A stretch of DNA of 23,776 nt from a virus, in the IMG/VR virus record IMGVR_UViG_3300004097_000056, positions 1 through 23,776 of that record; one strand, written 5' to 3'. This document shows positions 739 to 23,776 of the stretch, one piece after another. The notes under the pieces were generated by a model. It worked only from the letters and a program-made list of their open reading frames with translations. It did not search any database and had not been told where the DNA came from. Position numbers and translations under genes: made by a program. The stretch's first letter is position 1. Every line of letters starts with the position of its first letter.

Positions 739-804
739 GTGGCCCTGGTTGGTGGCCACGACGGATGAACGGAGCCGCCTGGTCTTGGTCCGCCGGGCGG
801 CTCC
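739..804 (+). repeat. Two inverted repeats in the gap before the modification operon
   Basis: Two perfect inverted repeats lie in the 94-base gap between the small membrane gene and the ParB-like gene. The first has 6-bp arms GTGGCC (739-744) and GGCCAC (754-759). The second has 9-bp arms GGAGCCGCC (771-779) and GGCGGCTCC (796-804). Neither is followed by a T run, so a classical intrinsic terminator is not supported. They could end the upstream transcript, mark an operator, or structure the operon leader. A TAAAGT (726-731) fits the actinobacterial -10 pattern TANNNT but lacks a good -35. Confidence 0.4.
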
Positions 805-822
805 GCCCGTTTCCGGGGACGG

Positions 823-1413
823 GTGCGCTACGCTCGCATCGTGGAGTACGTCCCGCAGCAGTACGAGGACCGCCCGGTTGCGGACCTGGTGTTGCATCCA
901 CGGAACCCGAACCAGGGCGATGTGGGAGCAATTGCCACGAGCATCGACGCCATCGGTTGGTACGGCGCGCCCATCGTCCAAAAGTCCACCGGCTACATCC
1001 TGGCCGGGAACCACCGGGTGATGGCCGCGCGCCACGAGGGCGCGGAGACCGTGCCGTGCTTGGTGATCGACGTCGATGATGACGTCGCCACGCGCATCCT
1101 GGTCGGTGACAATCGGCTGGCGGCCCTGGCCTACATGGACGACGAACGCGCGTTGGAACTGCTGATGGAATTGCAGGCCACCGGCGGGCTGCCCGGCACC
1201 GGCTACGACGAGGACGACCTGGACGCGCTCGTGCGTTCGCTTCAGCCGTTCGACCTGGACGAACTCGCGGCCCAGGTTGGCGATCCGGTGTCCGGCGACC
1301 TGGACCCCTCGGTTTCCGTCCGGGTGCCGCCGGACGTTTTCGCAAAGTGGCGCGCGCATGTTGATACGCACATGGGTGATGAGCCAGCCGCGTTCGCGGC
1401 GCTGTTCGACTAA
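823..1413 (+). CDS. ParB/sulfiredoxin-like N-terminal domain protein next to DpdA
   Basis: This is a 196-residue protein. Residues 15-105 match the ParB/Srx-type domain: a hydrophobic opening (VADLVLHPRNPN), a central helix, the GNHR nucleotide/phosphate-loop motif at 62-65 (family form G-x-HR), and a trailing GDNRLA segment. The rest is acidic, with no clear helix-turn-helix. Domains of this class are well known fused to, or beside, phage DNA methyltransferases. Here the partner is DpdA, whose ATG overlaps this stop codon (TAATG at 1411-1415). I infer a DNA-binding or targeting helper for base exchange. A free-standing ParB-like nuclease is the alternative. The start is GTG at 823; a GTG at 841 is also possible. 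Confidence 0.8.
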   Translation: MRYARIVEYVPQQYEDRPVADLVLHPRNPNQGDVGAIATSIDAIGWYGAPIVQKSTGYILAGNHRVMAARHEGAETVPCLVIDVDDDVATRILVGDNRLAALAYMDDERALELLMELQATGGLPGTGYDEDDLDALVRSLQPFDLDELAAQVGDPVSGDLDPSVSVRVPPDVFAKWRAHVDTHMGDEPAAFAALFD

Positions 1414-2303
1414 TGACTCCCATCCTGGTCTCGTTCCACTACTTCCGGTCCGCGAACCTGACCGGCCTGGTGGACGAGTTGGGTGGCACCGACGCCATCG
1501 ACCTGTTCGTTGACTCCGGTGCGTTCAGCGCCCTCAACGCCGGGGCGAAGGTGACGGTGCCCGATTATGCGGAGTGGTTGAACAAGCACCACCGGGTTGT
1601 GAACTTCGCCGCCGGGCTGGACGTCATCGGTGACCCGAAGGCCACAGCCAAAAACGCGCGCGCCCTGGTGAAGGCGACCAAGGGCCGCGTGACCATCGTG
1701 CCCACGTTCCACGTTGGGAGCGATTGGCGGCACCTCGTGGCGCTGTGCGAGGAATACCAATTCGTGGCGCTCGGTGGTGCCGTCGGCGTCAACCGCCGCG
1801 AGCGCGCGATGTTGGCGTGGCTGGCTCATGCTCACAAGATCATCCGGGACGCCGGGGCGGTCGCGCACGGCTTCGGATTGACCCGCCCGCCGTACCCCGA
1901 GGCCCTGCCGTGGTTCAGCGTCGATTCTTCCTATTGGGCAGTCGCCCAGCGGACCGGGACGATGGCGCTGTGGGACCGCCGGGCAAAACGCTTCGTGCCT
2001 ATCCGGGTTGGAAGGCCGGACACGGCAAAGCACGCGGTGCTGTTGAAGGAGTACGGCTTGGACCCCATCCAATTTTCCGCGGCGGGTTTTGGCCGGTCAT
2101 CAAAGCGCGGCCCGGATGCGAAGGGCGACCGCGCAGCCCTGGCCACCGCGTCGGTGAAATCCTGGCGACGCTATGCCCGCCACCTGCGCGCAGCCCGCGA
2201 CGTCGAACCGCCGAAGGGCGTGCGCGGTTCCGGGCCAAAGGTGTACCTCGCTGCGGGCAGCCCCGGCGACGTTCGACTGTTGGCGACCATGGAGGACGAA
2301 TAG
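1413..2303 (+). CDS. dpdA: DpdA-like DNA-guanine transglycosylase (TGT superfamily)
   Basis: This 296-residue protein resembles the tRNA-guanine transglycosylase superfamily as adapted to DNA. It has DSGAFSA at 34-40 (D34 corresponds to the general acid/base Asp of the DSGGFQ motif in TGT), GLD at 68-70, PTFHVG at 97-102, ALGGAVG at 119-125 and HGFGLT at 152-157. FSVDSSYW at 168-175 contains D171, the probable nucleophile that forms the covalent enzyme-DNA intermediate. The zinc-binding CxCxxC cluster of tRNA TGTs is not seen, and the protein is shorter than those enzymes. The reaction would be exchange of guanine in DNA for preQ0 or a derivative. It sits between a ParB-like gene and queC, whose ATG directly abuts the stop. 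The family is clear; the exact base is inferred from the neighbours. Confidence 0.88.
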   Translation: MTPILVSFHYFRSANLTGLVDELGGTDAIDLFVDSGAFSALNAGAKVTVPDYAEWLNKHHRVVNFAAGLDVIGDPKATAKNARALVKATKGRVTIVPTFHVGSDWRHLVALCEEYQFVALGGAVGVNRRERAMLAWLAHAHKIIRDAGAVAHGFGLTRPPYPEALPWFSVDSSYWAVAQRTGTMALWDRRAKRFVPIRVGRPDTAKHAVLLKEYGLDPIQFSAAGFGRSSKRGPDAKGDRAALATASVKSWRRYARHLRAARDVEPPKGVRGSGPKVYLAAGSPGDVRLLATMEDE

Positions 2304-2963
2304 ATGTCCAGCGCGATGGTGCTGCTTTCCGGCGGCATGGATTCGACGGCAGCCCTGGCGATGTTGAGCCACGACGGACCGGTTGAGGCTGTGTCGATTG
2401 ACTACGGGCAGCGGCATGCCCGCGAATTGGCCGCGGCGGGTGATGTGGCCAACCACTACTGCGTCCCCTGGTGCGTGGTGGACCTCCGGGAGTGGGGTGC
2501 CATGGTGCCGTCGGCGCTCACCGACCACGACCGCGAGTTGCCCGAGGGCCATTATGCGGACGAGAGCATGCGCGCCACGGTGGTGCCGGGCCGGAACGCC
2601 ATCATGCTTTCCGTCGCCGCGAGCATCGCCGCCGCGCGCGGATTGGAGACCGTGGTGACCGCGGTTCATGCCGGGGATCACCCGATCTATCCGGACTGCC
2701 GCCCGGCGTTCATCGCCGCCATGGACGAGGGGCTGCGGCAGGGCACGGGCGTCGGCGTGTTCGCGCCGTTCGTCAACGTGAGCAAAACCGAAATCGCCCG
2801 GCTCGGTGCCGACGCTGGCGCGCCGTTCGCGCTCACCTGGTCGTGTTATGCGGGCGGCGATGTTCACTGTGGCCGCTGCGGCACATGCGTTGAGCGCCGG
2901 GAAGCCTTTGAGGAATCCGGCGTGCCCGACCCGACGACATACGAGGTGAGCCATGCCGGTTGA
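2304..2963 (+). CDS. queC: 7-cyano-7-deazaguanine (preQ0) synthase QueC
   Basis: QueC converts 7-carboxy-7-deazaguanine to preQ0 using ATP and ammonia. The 219-residue protein has the full set of motifs: the PP-loop SGGMDST at 9-15, DYGQRH at 33-38, VPGRN at 94-98, and the C-terminal zinc site C181, C189, C192 and C195 (HCGRCGTC). Length matches stand-alone bacterial QueC, with no fused amidotransferase domain, so it is not the Gat-QueC type that would make archaeosine-like bases. The ATG follows the dpdA stop with no gap, and the end overlaps queD by 11 bases, consistent with a translationally coupled operon. Confidence 0.95.
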   Translation: MSSAMVLLSGGMDSTAALAMLSHDGPVEAVSIDYGQRHARELAAAGDVANHYCVPWCVVDLREWGAMVPSALTDHDRELPEGHYADESMRATVVPGRNAIMLSVAASIAAARGLETVVTAVHAGDHPIYPDCRPAFIAAMDEGLRQGTGVGVFAPFVNVSKTEIARLGADAGAPFALTWSCYAGGDVHCGRCGTCVERREAFEESGVPDPTTYEVSHAG

Positions 2964-3327
2964 AGTGACGCGCCGCATCCGATGGGAGGCCGCCCATTAC
3001 CTCCCGAACCACGACGGACCATGCGCGCGGATGCATGGTCATTCGTGGAGCGCCGAGGTGGTGGTGGCGGGCGATGTGGACACCAGCGAGGGGCCTACCC
3101 AGGGAATGGTGATCGACATGGGCGCGCTCGCGGCGCACTTCCGCGACAGGCTGGAACCGCTGTTGGACCACCAATGTCTGAACGACACCATCCCCGCGAC
3201 GTATTACCCACCCAGCACGGAGAACGTCGCGGCGTGGATACTCCACCATTACCGCGCCGCCGATTTCCCCGTGGTCCGCGTCACCGTCCGCGAAACCGAA
3301 AACCAGACGGCGACGGCGACAGCATGA
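2953..3327 (+). CDS. queD: 6-carboxy-tetrahydropterin synthase QueD
   Basis: QueD turns dihydroneopterin triphosphate, the FolE product, into 6-carboxy-tetrahydropterin. The 124-residue protein keeps the zinc ligands H15, H28 and H30 (AAHYL and MHGHSW), the catalytic Cys C24, the DH pair at 72-73 (LLDHQCLND), GMVIDM at 51-56, PSTEN at 87-91 and a Glu at 114 (VRETEN). This is the normal length for the 6-pyruvoyl-tetrahydropterin synthase/QueD family. The Cys-x3-HGH spacing favours QueD over eukaryote-type PTPS. It overlaps queC upstream by 11 bases and queE downstream by 4 (ATGA). Confidence 0.94.
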   Translation: MPVEVTRRIRWEAAHYLPNHDGPCARMHGHSWSAEVVVAGDVDTSEGPTQGMVIDMGALAAHFRDRLEPLLDHQCLNDTIPATYYPPSTENVAAWILHHYRAADFPVVRVTVRETENQTATATA

Positions 3328-3992
3328 CGTACACGGTGCACGAGCAGTTCTACACATGGCAGGGCGAGGGCGACCACATGGGCAAAGCCGCGTGGTTCAT
3401 CCGCATGCAGGGCTGCGATCAGAAATGTCCGTGGTGCGACGCCGCGGGCACATGGCACCCGGACCACAAGCCGGACAACCTGGAGCGGTACACCCCGGTG
3501 GAGTTGGCCAACTGCGTTGAGGCTCCGCCCGGTGCCATCGTGGTCATCACCGGCGGCGAGCCGTGCCTGTACGACCTGGACCCGCTCATTGAAGCCCTGG
3601 ACCATCGGGGCTATCCGGCGCACATCGAAACCGCGGGGCACCGGCCATTGCCGACCCGCCCGTGCTGGGTCACCCTTAGCCCAAAGCCCTTCGCCACCCC
3701 GCCCTTGGCGGCCAACGTCATGCGGGCCGACGAGTTCAAGGTGATCGTGTCCGGGCCGCGCAGCATGGCGGACGGGCTGGCGTTCACCCGGCCCGGATGC
3801 TCAACATGGTTGCACCCGGAGTGGTCCAAGCACGACGACCCGGATGTGTTGGACCTGATCAGCGAAACCGTGAAGGACAACCCGGACCTGCGCGCCGGTT
3901 GGCAACTCCACAAAAACTACCGCGTTGACCAATTGGACCCCGGCAGCCGCCCGGCGGTCCCGCTGGGAGGTGTCGATGGCAACCCATGGTGA
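3324..3992 (+). CDS. queE: 7-carboxy-7-deazaguanine synthase QueE (radical SAM)
   Basis: QueE is the radical-SAM enzyme that rearranges 6-carboxy-tetrahydropterin to 7-carboxy-7-deazaguanine. The 222-residue protein has QGEG at 13-16, the iron-sulfur-binding Cx3Cx2C at C31, C35 and C38 (CDQKCPWC), GGEP at 77-80, ETAG at 102-105, TLSPKP at 117-122 and the QLHKNYRVD tail at 194-202. The start is the ATG overlapping the queD stop; the longer frame upstream is a shadow inside queD. The last 17 bases overlap the next gene, so the C-terminal tail after about residue 206 looks like added sequence. Confidence 0.94.
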   Translation: MTYTVHEQFYTWQGEGDHMGKAAWFIRMQGCDQKCPWCDAAGTWHPDHKPDNLERYTPVELANCVEAPPGAIVVITGGEPCLYDLDPLIEALDHRGYPAHIETAGHRPLPTRPCWVTLSPKPFATPPLAANVMRADEFKVIVSGPRSMADGLAFTRPGCSTWLHPEWSKHDDPDVLDLISETVKDNPDLRAGWQLHKNYRVDQLDPGSRPAVPLGGVDGNPW

Positions 3993-4896
3993 CCTGTGGA
4001 CCGCGACATGGCAGGACATCACCGAGCAGGTGGCGACGGTGGCCAAGCGTTGGGAGCCGCGCGATGTGTTCGGCATCCCGCGCGGCGGCCATGTGCCCGC
4101 GGCCATGCTCGCCACGCTGTGGGGCACAAAGGTGTTGGCCGATCCGGAACCGGGTTGTCTGATGCTGGACGACCTGGTGGACAGCGGGCGGACCATGGAG
4201 GAGTGGCTGTACCTGTTCGGGGATGGCGTCGATTTCGACGCGCTGTACCGGAAGCCCACCAGCCCGGAGACTCCGCACCGGGTTCAACCCACCACGGTGG
4301 ATGGCTGGGTTGTGTTCCCGTGGGAGCGGGAAACCAGCGGGCCGGAGGACGCGGTGGTGCGGCTGCTCCAATGGGTCGGTGAAAACCCGGCGCGCGATGG
4401 ACTGCTGGACACCCCGGCCAGGGTGACCAACGCGTGGCGCGAGTTGTGCGAGGGCTACCAGGTGGACGTTGGCCAACTGCTGGCCACCCAGTTCGATCAG
4501 GAGGGCGGCGGCCAATACGGGGGCATGGTGGTGCTGCGCTCGGTGCCCTTCAACAGCATGTGCGAGCATCACCTGTTGCCGTTCAACGGGCACGCCACCG
4601 TGGCCTACATCCCCGGCGACTCCGGGCGCATCGTCGGCTTGTCGAAGTTGGCACGGCTCGTGGAGGCCTATGCCCGGCGGCTTCAGGTCCAGGAGCGGAT
4701 GACGCTTCAGATCGTGGACGCGTTGGAGGACCACCTGGCCCCGCTCGGCTCCGCGTGCACCATCACCGCCCACCATTCATGCATGAGCCTGCGTGGCGTC
4801 CGGAAGGACACCGGCGGCATGGTGACGTCGGAGGTCCGCGGTGCGTTCAAGACCGACCCGGCAGCCCGCGCCGAATTCATGTCCCTAAGCCAATGA
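3976..4896 (+). CDS. folE: Phosphoribosyltransferase-GTP cyclohydrolase I fusion
   Basis: This 306-residue protein has two domains. Residues 1 to about 116 carry type I phosphoribosyltransferase signatures: GIPRGGHVPAAMLA at 33-46 and the PRPP-binding CLMLDDLVDSGRT at 61-73. They end in a VVFPWE segment (112-117). Residues 120-306 are GTP cyclohydrolase I (FolE), which opens GTP to dihydroneopterin triphosphate. The zinc and catalytic residues are intact: C196, H198 and H199 (CEHH), H267 and C269 (HHSC), plus GLSKLARLVE at 221-230 and the SLRGVRK tail. The start ATG 3976 is backed by GGGAGG at 3965-3970 and overlaps queE. It supplies the first step of preQ0 synthesis. The phosphoribosyltransferase may recycle a purine base toward GTP, which is inference; its substrate is not readable from the sequence. 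Confidence 0.92.
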   Translation: MATHGDLWTATWQDITEQVATVAKRWEPRDVFGIPRGGHVPAAMLATLWGTKVLADPEPGCLMLDDLVDSGRTMEEWLYLFGDGVDFDALYRKPTSPETPHRVQPTTVDGWVVFPWERETSGPEDAVVRLLQWVGENPARDGLLDTPARVTNAWRELCEGYQVDVGQLLATQFDQEGGGQYGGMVVLRSVPFNSMCEHHLLPFNGHATVAYIPGDSGRIVGLSKLARLVEAYARRLQVQERMTLQIVDALEDHLAPLGSACTITAHHSCMSLRGVRKDTGGMVTSEVRGAFKTDPAARAEFMSLSQ

Positions 4897-5186
4897 AACG
4901 CGATTGGCGGGCCGCGCGCGCCAAAGTGGACCAGGAAGGCCGGTGCCGGGTGTGCGGGGCCAGGAATGGCTTGCAAGCGGCGCACACGATTGGCCGCAAG
5001 TACGACGACCGCCGAACCGGCGTTGTCGATCCGCGCGACATCGTGCCTTTATGCGCCCACGACCATGCCGCGTTCGATCAACGCCGGTTAGACCTCCTCC
5101 CGTACCTGACCCTGGACGAACAGGCCCGCGCTGTCGAACACGTTGGGATTGAGCGCGCGCGCAACCGGCTGGCCCCATTGGGTTAG
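4893..5186 (+). CDS. Small HNH-type nuclease at the end of the modification operon
   Basis: This 97-residue protein has a zinc-finger HNH layout: CxxC at C18/C21, H31 in LQAAHTIGRK, an acidic/Asp-rich turn (VVDPRDIVPLC) and C54 with H56/H58 and a terminal FD. The central Asn of classical HNH is not obvious, so activity is uncertain. Its ATG overlaps the folE stop (ATGA), tying it to the operon. It could be a homing or DNA-processing nuclease, or an enzyme aimed at unmodified competitor DNA. The context suggests but does not prove the last option. The stop codon falls inside the first of the tandem repeats that follow. Confidence 0.75.
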   Translation: MKRDWRAARAKVDQEGRCRVCGARNGLQAAHTIGRKYDDRRTGVVDPRDIVPLCAHDHAAFDQRRLDLLPYLTLDEQARAVEHVGIERARNRLAPLG

Positions 5187-5257
5187 ACCTAGGCCGGTGC
5201 TTGGAGACCTGGCCGGGGGCTTGGAGACCTAGGTGCTGGGAGACCCTGGCCGGTTGC
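5181..5257 (+). repeat. Four imperfect ~20-bp direct repeats
   Basis: Four near-tandem copies of a unit close to ttGGAGACCTaGGCCGGtgc begin at about 5181, 5201, 5221 and 5237. The shared core is GAGACC followed by a CTAGG or CTGGCCGG part. The period is 20, 20 and then 16 bases. Two copies contain the palindrome CCTAGG (5188-5193 and 5228-5233). The first copy includes the stop codon of the HNH gene; the others are non-coding. Such an iteron-like array between two gene blocks could bind a regulator or replication protein. Function is unknown. Confidence 0.75.
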
Positions 5258-5286
5258 CGGGGCGGTCCTGCGGATGCTGGCAGGTA

Positions 5287-6949: not shown

Positions 6950-7486
6950 ATGAACAGCACCACCGGCATCAACCACCCCGCCGCCGCCACCGATGCGCTC
7001 GCCGCGTTCCGCCTGATCGACCGCGATTGGTGGGGTGGCTATTACCCCGCCGACAACCCGGTGTGCGTGGACAACCCGGACGGCGAGTTCGACTGGCTCA
7101 TCGACGCCATCCGGCATTGCCACGCCGACGGCAACGGGGGCTACAACATGCCCGACGACTGGACGTACCACCACGCACACATGGCCATGGAGTTCATCGC
7201 GGAGCAGGAGCGCGTGCACGGCGACGACACCGTGGCCGACATCCACATGGATCAGGACCTGGTGCACGAGTGGGCCGACCGGTACACCGAGACCTACCCC
7301 GGTCCGGGGACGGCGGTGCGCGCAACGTGGATGATTTCCACGCCGGAGCGCATGGCCGCCGTGGCCGAATTGATGGAGGAGTCCGGCTACTGCATGACGC
7401 ACGCCCTGGCCGAGGCGTACCAGGATGAGGTGGACCATGTGTTCATGGTGGTGCTGGACCGGTACAAGGCTCACACCACTGGATGA
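6950..7486 (+). CDS. Hypothetical acidic protein, 178 residues
   Basis: I do not recognise this protein. It is acidic and rich in Trp, His and Asp, with segments such as DRDWWGGYYPADNP, a helix holding HHAHMAMEFIAEQE, and a C-terminal helix EAYQDEVDHVFMVVLDRYK. I chose ATG 6950, which has GGAG at 6940-6943. An in-frame ATG at 6890 overlaps the previous stop and would add 20 Thr/Asn-rich residues, so the exact start is uncertain. The end overlaps the HNH gene by four bases. Confidence 0.65.
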   Translation: MNSTTGINHPAAATDALAAFRLIDRDWWGGYYPADNPVCVDNPDGEFDWLIDAIRHCHADGNGGYNMPDDWTYHHAHMAMEFIAEQERVHGDDTVADIHMDQDLVHEWADRYTETYPGPGTAVRATWMISTPERMAAVAELMEESGYCMTHALAEAYQDEVDHVFMVVLDRYKAHTTG

Positions 7487-7809
7487 GCCGACGCGCTCCC
7501 AAAGCCTGCGCCGAGGTGGGTTGCTTGGAGGCCGCGACAAAGCGCGGTCGCTGCGCAGCCCACCAGGTGCAGCCGTGGGTTGGCGCATACCGGGTTGAGC
7601 CACCGGGCTGGGATCGGTTGCGCCGCTCGGTGCTGCTCGGTGCCCAATGCGTGGCGTGTGGTTCGACACCCGATGTTGTGGACCACATCGTGCCGTTGGC
7701 ACGCGGTGGGTCGTGGGACATCACCAACCTCCAACCGATGTGCCGAGCCTGTCACCACCGCAAGACCCAGGCCGAAGCGCGGGAGGGCAAACAACGGCGG
7801 TCCCGTTAG
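7483..7809 (+). CDS. HNH endonuclease next to terminase
   Basis: This 108-residue protein has a classical HNH fold: C56/C59, DHIVPLARGG (D67-H68), TNLQP with N82, C87/C90 and HHRKT (H91-H92). An extra Cys/His set near the N-terminus (C9, C14, C24, H27) may form another small zinc site. HNH proteins directly upstream of terminase genes are common in tailed phages, where some are known to work with the large terminase in cutting and packaging DNA. The position here supports that role. The ATGA overlap at 7483-7486 couples it to the preceding gene. Confidence 0.88.
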   Translation: MSRRAPKACAEVGCLEAATKRGRCAAHQVQPWVGAYRVEPPGWDRLRRSVLLGAQCVACGSTPDVVDHIVPLARGGSWDITNLQPMCRACHHRKTQAEAREGKQRRSR

Positions 7810-23306: not shown

Positions 23307-23776
23307 GTGGCGATTATTACCGGCGGCGGGCTGCCATCAGGCGGGGACGCTGGCCCGCCCGGCAAGGACGGCGCGAGCGCCTACGAAATTGCCGTTCAAC
23401 ACGGCTTCCCCGGCACCGAACAGGAATGGCTGGACAGCCTCCAGGGGCAACCCGGTACGGACGCTCCGGCGGTGGACGTCAAGGGGTGGGTGCCCACGGC
23501 GGACGACCTCCCGGCGGATGCATCAGACCGCGACGCCTACATAAGCGCCGACGACGGACACTTCCACCTTTACTACGCCGACACCGGCGAGTGGCGTGAC
23601 TGCGGCCCGGTCGTTGGCCCTCCCGGCGAACAGGGCGACACCGGCGCGAGCGCCTACGAGGCCGCGGTGGCGGCGGGCTTCGACGGCACGCAGGAGGAGT
23701 GGCTTGCGAGCCTCCAGGGCGAGCCGGGCAAGCAGGGCGACCAGGGCGACCAGGGCGAGCAGGGCGACCAGGGCGA
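23307..23776 (+). CDS. Collagen-like tail fibre protein (cut by window edge)
   Basis: The gene starts at GTG 23307 behind GGAGGAGG at 23292-23299 and runs off the right edge, so only about 156 residues are visible. It contains Gly-x-y collagen-like tracts (AGPPGKDGAS, GPPGEQGDTG and a GDQGDQGEQGDQG run) and two copies of a repeat reading SAYE-x-AV-x2-GF-x-GT-x2-EWL-x-SLQG (one starting near 23379, one near 23651). Between them is a WVPTADDLPADASDRDAYIS strand region. Such repeats with Gly-x-y tracts are known in phage tail fibres, where they trimerise and place receptor-binding tips. The C-terminal receptor part is outside the window. Confidence 0.85.
   Translation, partial: MAIITGGGLPSGGDAGPPGKDGASAYEIAVQHGFPGTEQEWLDSLQGQPGTDAPAVDVKGWVPTADDLPADASDRDAYISADDGHFHLYYADTGEWRDCGPVVGPPGEQGDTGASAYEAAVAAGFDGTQEEWLASLQGEPGKQGDQGDQGEQGDQG
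23709..23776 (+). repeat. Short tandem repeat coding for Gly-Asp/Glu-Gln
   Basis: The last 68 bases are repeats of a 9-base unit close to cagggcgac/cagggcgag. They encode the Gly-Asp-Gln/Gly-Glu-Gln collagen-like triplets and continue past the edge. Near-identical units make the tract liable to length changes by slippage. Confidence 0.8.

Follow-up and report, generated by a model that had tools for sequence, protein, structure and literature searches.

The operon at positions 823-5186 of IMG/VR virus record IMGVR_UViG_3300004097_000056, a tailed-phage fragment whose whole length of 23,776 bases was analyzed and is referred to here as the window, raises the question of whether its genes equip the phage to modify its own DNA and, if they do, with which base. 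It is a single tight operon that encodes, in this order, a ParB-like protein, DpdA, QueC, QueD, QueE, FolE and a small HNH protein. The initial annotation, made from the sequence alone, had proposed that this phage substitutes part of its guanine with 7-cyano-7-deazaguanine (preQ0) or a derivative, a reading supported here by analogy, because the gene set is that of 'group 2' of Hutinet et al. 2019 (PMC6884629), whose tested members carry 2'-deoxy-preQ0 (dPreQ0). With a probability that we put at roughly 0.86, the locus would be a phage 7-deazaguanine DNA-modification operon that places dPreQ0 in part of the G, guanine salvage or sensing being our best guess for a purine phosphoribosyltransferase (PRTase) domain found fused to its FolE.

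FolE, QueD, QueE and QueC are the enzymes of the known pathway from GTP to preQ0, and the motifs of these families could be recognized in the window proteins: SGGMDS and four C-terminal cysteines in QueC, CX3CX2C and TGGEP in QueE, and SMCEHH, HSCM and QVQER in FolE, whose modeled domain matches human GCH1 with a Z score of 24.8 at 1.4 Å. The QueC protein has 219 amino acids and aligns with the Gat-QueC protein of Pseudomonas phage NP1 over the QueC part only, and no homologue of QueF, ArcS, Gat, QueF-L or DpdC was seen among the window open reading frames searched, the record being a fragment. DpdA together with FolE, QueD, QueE and QueC, all of which are present in the window, and without an amidotransferase, is the combination that defines group 2 and for which dPreQ0 is predicted (PMC6884629). 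In the group 2 phages that have been measured, dPreQ0 accounts for about 28% of the G in Rosebush, where it occurs almost alone, and for about 32% in CAjan, and it is lost in CAjan ΔdpdA (PMC6884629). Because the window QueC lacks an amidotransferase domain and QueF, ArcS and Gat are not in view, dPreQ0 is likely to be the base, in a fraction of the G, by analogy with Rosebush and CAjan.

The AlphaFold2 model of DpdA, built with 41 aligned viral relatives (predicted local distance difference test score, pLDDT, of 90), has its closest structural matches among tRNA-guanine transglycosylases (TGTs), so that the structural comparison suggested in the initial annotation returned a TGT fold (Z 17.9 over 244 residues at 3.2 Å with the Z. 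mobilis enzyme). The profile of the 41 members matched the DNA-guanine transglycosylase 7ui4 (E 0.0012) and not a single tRNA TGT up to E 1; thus, the grouping with tRNA-acting enzymes that had been named beforehand as an outcome refuting DNA modification was not seen by profile. The TGT models of Pfam matched none of the 41 family members. Residues D34, D70, H152 and D171 are invariant across the 41 sequences and align with D72, D114, H196 and D215 of phage 9g, and we take D34 and D171 to be the general acid/base and the nucleophile by analogy with TGTs. The histidine that marks phage DpdA is therefore present in the window protein, H152 corresponding to H196 of 9g, the residue that DpdA2 lacks according to Hutinet et al. 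(PMC6884629). The zinc site CxCxxC...H of TGTs was not found in the window DpdA, which has a single cysteine, and CxCxxC occurs in none of the 41 relatives. Because these cysteines are missing throughout, the earlier statement that all catalytic and metal-binding residues had been identified fails for the metal site of DpdA, and it holds in this respect for the Que and FolE enzymes. PADLOC gave no hit for DpdA, and a scan of viral contigs with the single DpdA sequence found nothing.

The ParB-like gene joins dpdA through a TAATG overlap of its stop codon with the DpdA start. The Pfam ParB_N match of its product (2e-4) lies below the cut-off, and the protein is 42% and 37% identical to the DpdA-adjacent ParB proteins of the phages Sonali and Cracklewink, respectively; its relatives lie next to DpdA in B-cluster mycobacteriophages or, in Gordonia phages, form fusions with DNA methyltransferases. 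A ParB-superfamily domain is thus encoded beside dpdA, and a ParB-superfamily protein accompanying DpdA is what has been described as DpdB (PMC6392294; PMC12839542). Because of the recurrent adjacency to DpdA and the published role of DpdB, the ParB-like protein is most likely, by analogy, a partner of DpdA for the engagement of DNA. For DpdB, which is bacterial, an ATPase activity is required for the insertion of the base.

The window FolE has 306 amino acids, and its residues 1 to about 120 form a Gpt-like purine PRTase domain; the initial annotation had named the enzyme correctly and had overlooked that it is a PRTase-FolE fusion. The domain matches the Gpt/HGXPRT purine PRTases of the PDB (E 7e-6), and its AlphaFold2 model (pLDDT 92.5) matches E. 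coli XGPRT-type structures with Z scores of 14-15 and the GMP-bound Sulfolobus HGXPRT with a Z score of 14.1 (118 residues, 2.0 Å). It is of the Gpt type, with a class I PRTase fold, the phosphoribosyl pyrophosphate (PRPP) motif DDxxDSGxT, an RGG loop and W..FPWE, and it shares with E. coli XGPRT and Sulfolobus HGXPRT the fold and the PRPP, pyrophosphate-loop and purine-stacking motifs, but differs from them in its fusion to FolE and in a flexible-loop stretch that is about 20 residues shorter. The full flexible catalytic loop was not found, the RGG-to-DDxxDSG spacing being 26 residues in the window versus 46 in the stand-alone PRTase of L013. Positions G38, D65, G71, W111, P115, W116 and E117 are invariant in 47 aligned fusions. 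Of the 94 non-redundant PRTase-FolE fusions found in viruses, 89 retain the PRPP motif, 83 the RGG loop and 75 the strict W.VFPWE form, near variants of this last motif occurring in much of the remainder.

The distribution of the fusion was analyzed in 80 viral loci sampled around FolE. Of these, 45 are fused; as the sample follows a ranking by similarity with the window FolE, fused forms may be over-represented. Among 80 FolE loci from bacteria there was a single fusion, located in a complete DpdA cluster with the label Anaerolinea; this contig (L098, DYKZ01000001.1, 111,818 bases), filed as a metagenome-assembled genome of Anaerolinea thermophila, carries the full viral-type cluster QueE-QueC-QueD-PRTase-FolE-DpdA and probably stems from a virus that was binned together with the bacterium. 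In Flavobacterium phage immuto, Brevundimonas phage MaInes and Pseudomonas phage Callisto, stand-alone PRTases from this family are neighbors of FolE or QueE. On the FolE tree, about 17 gains or losses of the domain are required, and well-supported branches force at least 9 of them; because of these changes, a single origin of the fusion is not supported and, as judged from the sequences, the PRTase domain is optional and often exchanged. A link between a long PRTase loop and the absence of DpdA was rejected, since Campylobacter phage CPt10, whose loop is longer, has a DpdA2-like gene: its 'hypothetical protein' YP_009168992.1 (NC_027996.1, 54369-55145; L251:2370-3146) shares 44% identity (E 3e-55) with the protein annotated as DpdA in immuto. 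Campylobacter phages were listed by Hutinet et al. as modified with 2'-deoxy-7-amido-7-deazaguanosine (dADG) without DpdA (PMC6884629), and judging from this similarity a gene of the DpdA2-like kind may have been overlooked in them.

As to the role of the fused domain, no description of a PRTase in this pathway was found in the searchable literature, which comprised open-licence PMC papers only. We tentatively propose that the PRTase-FolE fusion represents a so far unreported accessory component of the 7-deazaguanine systems of phages, in which a compact purine PRTase recycles (or senses) the guanine ejected by DpdA and closes a guanine-GMP-GTP-preQ0 loop. The published value for Rosebush is about 96,500 dPreQ0 per million nucleotides; we estimate that a 67-kb genome needs some 13,000 preQ0 and a burst of 100 about a million GTP, a demand that would give a strong reason to recycle guanine. 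Several observations tell against the salvage part of this proposal. The stretch between the RGG and PRPP motifs measures 20-38 residues in the fused forms, mostly 26-28, and the shortened loop argues for a weak or altered catalysis of the domain; two FolE fusions (L084:7785-8681 and L090:6877-7863) have decayed PRTase motifs, which suggests that the domain can outlive its own catalytic site. The FolE proteins of the model phages 9g and CAjan (204 and 196 amino acids), unlike that of the window, lack the domain, which is therefore accessory. Furthermore, DpdA was present in all 19 fused viral loci whose flanks reach 3 kb or more in both directions and also in 16 of 20 unfused viral FolE loci, so that a specific tie of the fusion to DpdA was not shown; because unfused loci usually hold DpdA too, the fusion goes with the pathway as a whole and not specifically with DpdA.

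The shortened loop keeps alive the alternative of a regulatory PRTase domain without catalysis, which would adjust FolE upon binding of PRPP, GMP or guanine, a role that we consider possible, if short of probable. PurR and PyrR are regulators with a PRTase fold, and the motif loss in two fusions, the physical linkage to the enzyme that opens the pathway and the repeated gain or loss of the domain all favor such a role, as does the loop itself. On the other hand, the PRPP loop, the RGG motif and the purine-stacking W...PWE are kept in most of the 94 fusions, beyond what a bare scaffold would need.

According to the reading that we prefer, DNA modification with dPreQ0, the enzymes assigned by family and motif as FolE, QueD, QueE and QueC would convert GTP to preQ0, and DpdA, given its TGT fold and conserved catalytic residues, would cut the bond between guanine and deoxyribose in the phage DNA, insert preQ0 and free guanine, the ParB-like protein helping it to engage the DNA. 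As expected from known pathways, dPreQ0 in a fraction of the G would shield the phage DNA from restriction. More speculatively, and with low confidence, the fused PRTase might return the guanine freed by DpdA to GMP and hence to GTP, the substrate of FolE, or it might instead sense guanine or PRPP to set the flux through FolE.

Two points weigh against this scheme, namely that the QueD and QueE scores are below the NCBIfam equivalog cut-offs, and that a later-acting enzyme encoded outside the 23.8-kb fragment could turn dPreQ0 into another base. The final base would then be dADG, 2'-deoxy-preQ1 (dPreQ1) or 2'-deoxyarchaeosine (dG+), which we regard as unlikely: such enzymes may sit apart from the cluster, but none of their homologues was seen among the window open reading frames searched, Sonali and the B-cluster mycobacteriophages, which share this compact operon, have none within their clusters (PMC6392294 for the mycobacteriophages), and in Rosebush dPreQ0 stands almost alone.

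A further explanation, that the PRTase makes the nucleotide of a 7-deazaguanine base and feeds a DpdA-independent deoxynucleoside triphosphate route, appears improbable for the window, which, like nearly all fused loci, encodes DpdA, an enzyme that needs the free base. It draws on Brevundimonas phage MaInes (L094), which has QueC, QueD, QueE, a stand-alone PRTase beside FolE, a ribonucleotide reductase and a deoxynucleoside monophosphate kinase, and in which two whole-genome searches did not find DpdA; this phage is a candidate for a nucleotide-level route. Finally, an action of the transglycosylase on host tRNA, with the operon raising queuosine or its precursors there, as relatives annotated automatically as queuine tRNA-ribosyltransferase would suggest, is highly improbable in view of the profile match to 7ui4 rather than to tRNA TGTs, the zinc site missing in 41 of 41 relatives and the loss of the DNA base in CAjan ΔdpdA, whose DpdA is related.

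The closest arrangement is that of Arthrobacter phage Sonali, whose genes 86-91 follow the identical order ParB-DpdA-QueC-QueD-QueE-FolE (36% identity for DpdA and 59% for QueC, besides the 42% for ParB), although its FolE lacks the PRTase domain and its operon lies at the other genome end, away from the terminase. Sonali gene 81 (L003:3987-4604) is a second, shorter gene annotated as DpdA-like that aligns poorly with DpdA. Since the same six-gene order from ParB to FolE occurs also in the uncultured viruses L008, L015, L193, L208, L249 and others, the operon is a recurrent cassette and that of the window a further instance of a known system. The B-cluster mycobacteriophages (Rosebush, CRB2) and the phages Bipper and Cracklewink likewise have, upstream of the terminase, a DpdB-like ParB together with DpdA and Que genes, but show no similarity to the window at the DNA level; the Bipper type is without QueC, and the Cracklewink FolE is unfused. 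The Queuovirinae Pseudomonas phage NP1 and Vibrio phage VpKK5 share with the window the PRTase-FolE fusion, QueC, QueD, QueE and DpdA, but differ in gene order and in a DpdA without a neighboring ParB and beside the DNA polymerase, and NP1 has Gat-QueC. The experimentally studied phages 9g and CAjan have a DpdA of the same family, with H196 present, and the preQ0 pathway.

The seven genes named in the initial annotation were recovered at their coordinates with family scores far above chance (Table 1), and the overlapping order that it described was confirmed, all junctions overlapping or abutting: DpdA and QueC abut, QueC and QueD overlap by 11 nucleotides, QueD and QueE as well as FolE and HNH by ATGA, and QueE and FolE by 17 nucleotides with a clear Shine-Dalgarno sequence. 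FolE probably starts at ATG 3976, with GGGAGGTG as its Shine-Dalgarno, and the HNH gene at ATG 4893. The stretch 764-824 folds with -39.7 kcal/mol (z -4.2), and the hairpin within it is a plausible boundary between the operon and the upstream genes. No homologue of the operon HNH protein was found among the collected syntenic loci, which led to its rejection as part of the module, and it is probably outside the pathway. Three imperfect 20-nucleotide direct repeats (AGACCTAGGCCGGTGCTTGG) lie directly after the operon (5185-5260).

Table 1. Features of the 7-deazaguanine operon and its upstream boundary in the window
Feature	Position	Strand	Evidence
GC-rich hairpin, terminator-like without T run	770..805	+	13-nt inverted repeat, 92% complementary
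ParB-like (ParB/Srx domain), probable DpdB-like partner	823..1413	+	phrog_723 E 6e-30
DpdA, putative DNA-guanine transglycosylase, phage type 1	1413..2303	+	phrog_887 E 3e-38
QueC	2304..2963	+	Pfam QueC E 1e-59; TIGR00364 177 bits, cut-off 150
QueD, 6-carboxytetrahydropterin synthase	2953..3327	+	Pfam PTPS E 6e-27; CARMHGH motif
QueE	3324..3992	+	phrog_2076 E 2e-31; TIGR04322 2e-27 (below cut-off); motifs
Gpt-like purine PRTase, N-terminal domain of FolE fusion	3976..4347	+	phrog_8995 E 3e-11
FolE, GTP cyclohydrolase I domain	4348..4896	+	Pfam GTP_cyclohydroI E 5e-65; TIGR00063 above cut-off
Small HNH protein, operon end	4893..5186	+	HNH_2 E 1.5e-6

The genes for the small and large terminase subunits (TerS, TerL), the major capsid, portal and tail proteins are all downstream of the operon in the same record. 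Megablast of the window against 50,697 phage records gave no match. The nearest TerL relatives, at about 29% identity, are those of phiC31/BT1-type Streptomyces phages, the matches to the window ParB come almost exclusively from Arthrobacter, Gordonia and Mycobacterium phages, and the GC content is 64-69%; for these reasons an actinobacterial host is likely, as far as sequence kinship can tell. No tRNA gene, no Rfam match and neither a sigma-70 promoter nor a T-run terminator above chance was found in the window. A second HNH gene, unrelated to that of the operon, lies directly before the terminase genes (7483-7809), a common arrangement, and collagen-like Gly-X-Y repeats at about 23340-23776 likely belong to a tail-fibre gene truncated by the contig end.

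The base-swap strategy against restriction is already known, and the operon extends it to a further uncultured phage, whose host is likely an actinobacterium; what had been overlooked, and may prove instructive, is the PRTase-FolE fusion. In this pathway a conserved purine PRTase domain is present in many viral FolE proteins, including those of the cultured phages NP1 and VpKK5, and it is unnamed in databases and in the searchable open-licence papers. If the proposed role is true, purine recycling or flux control would be part of DNA hypermodification.

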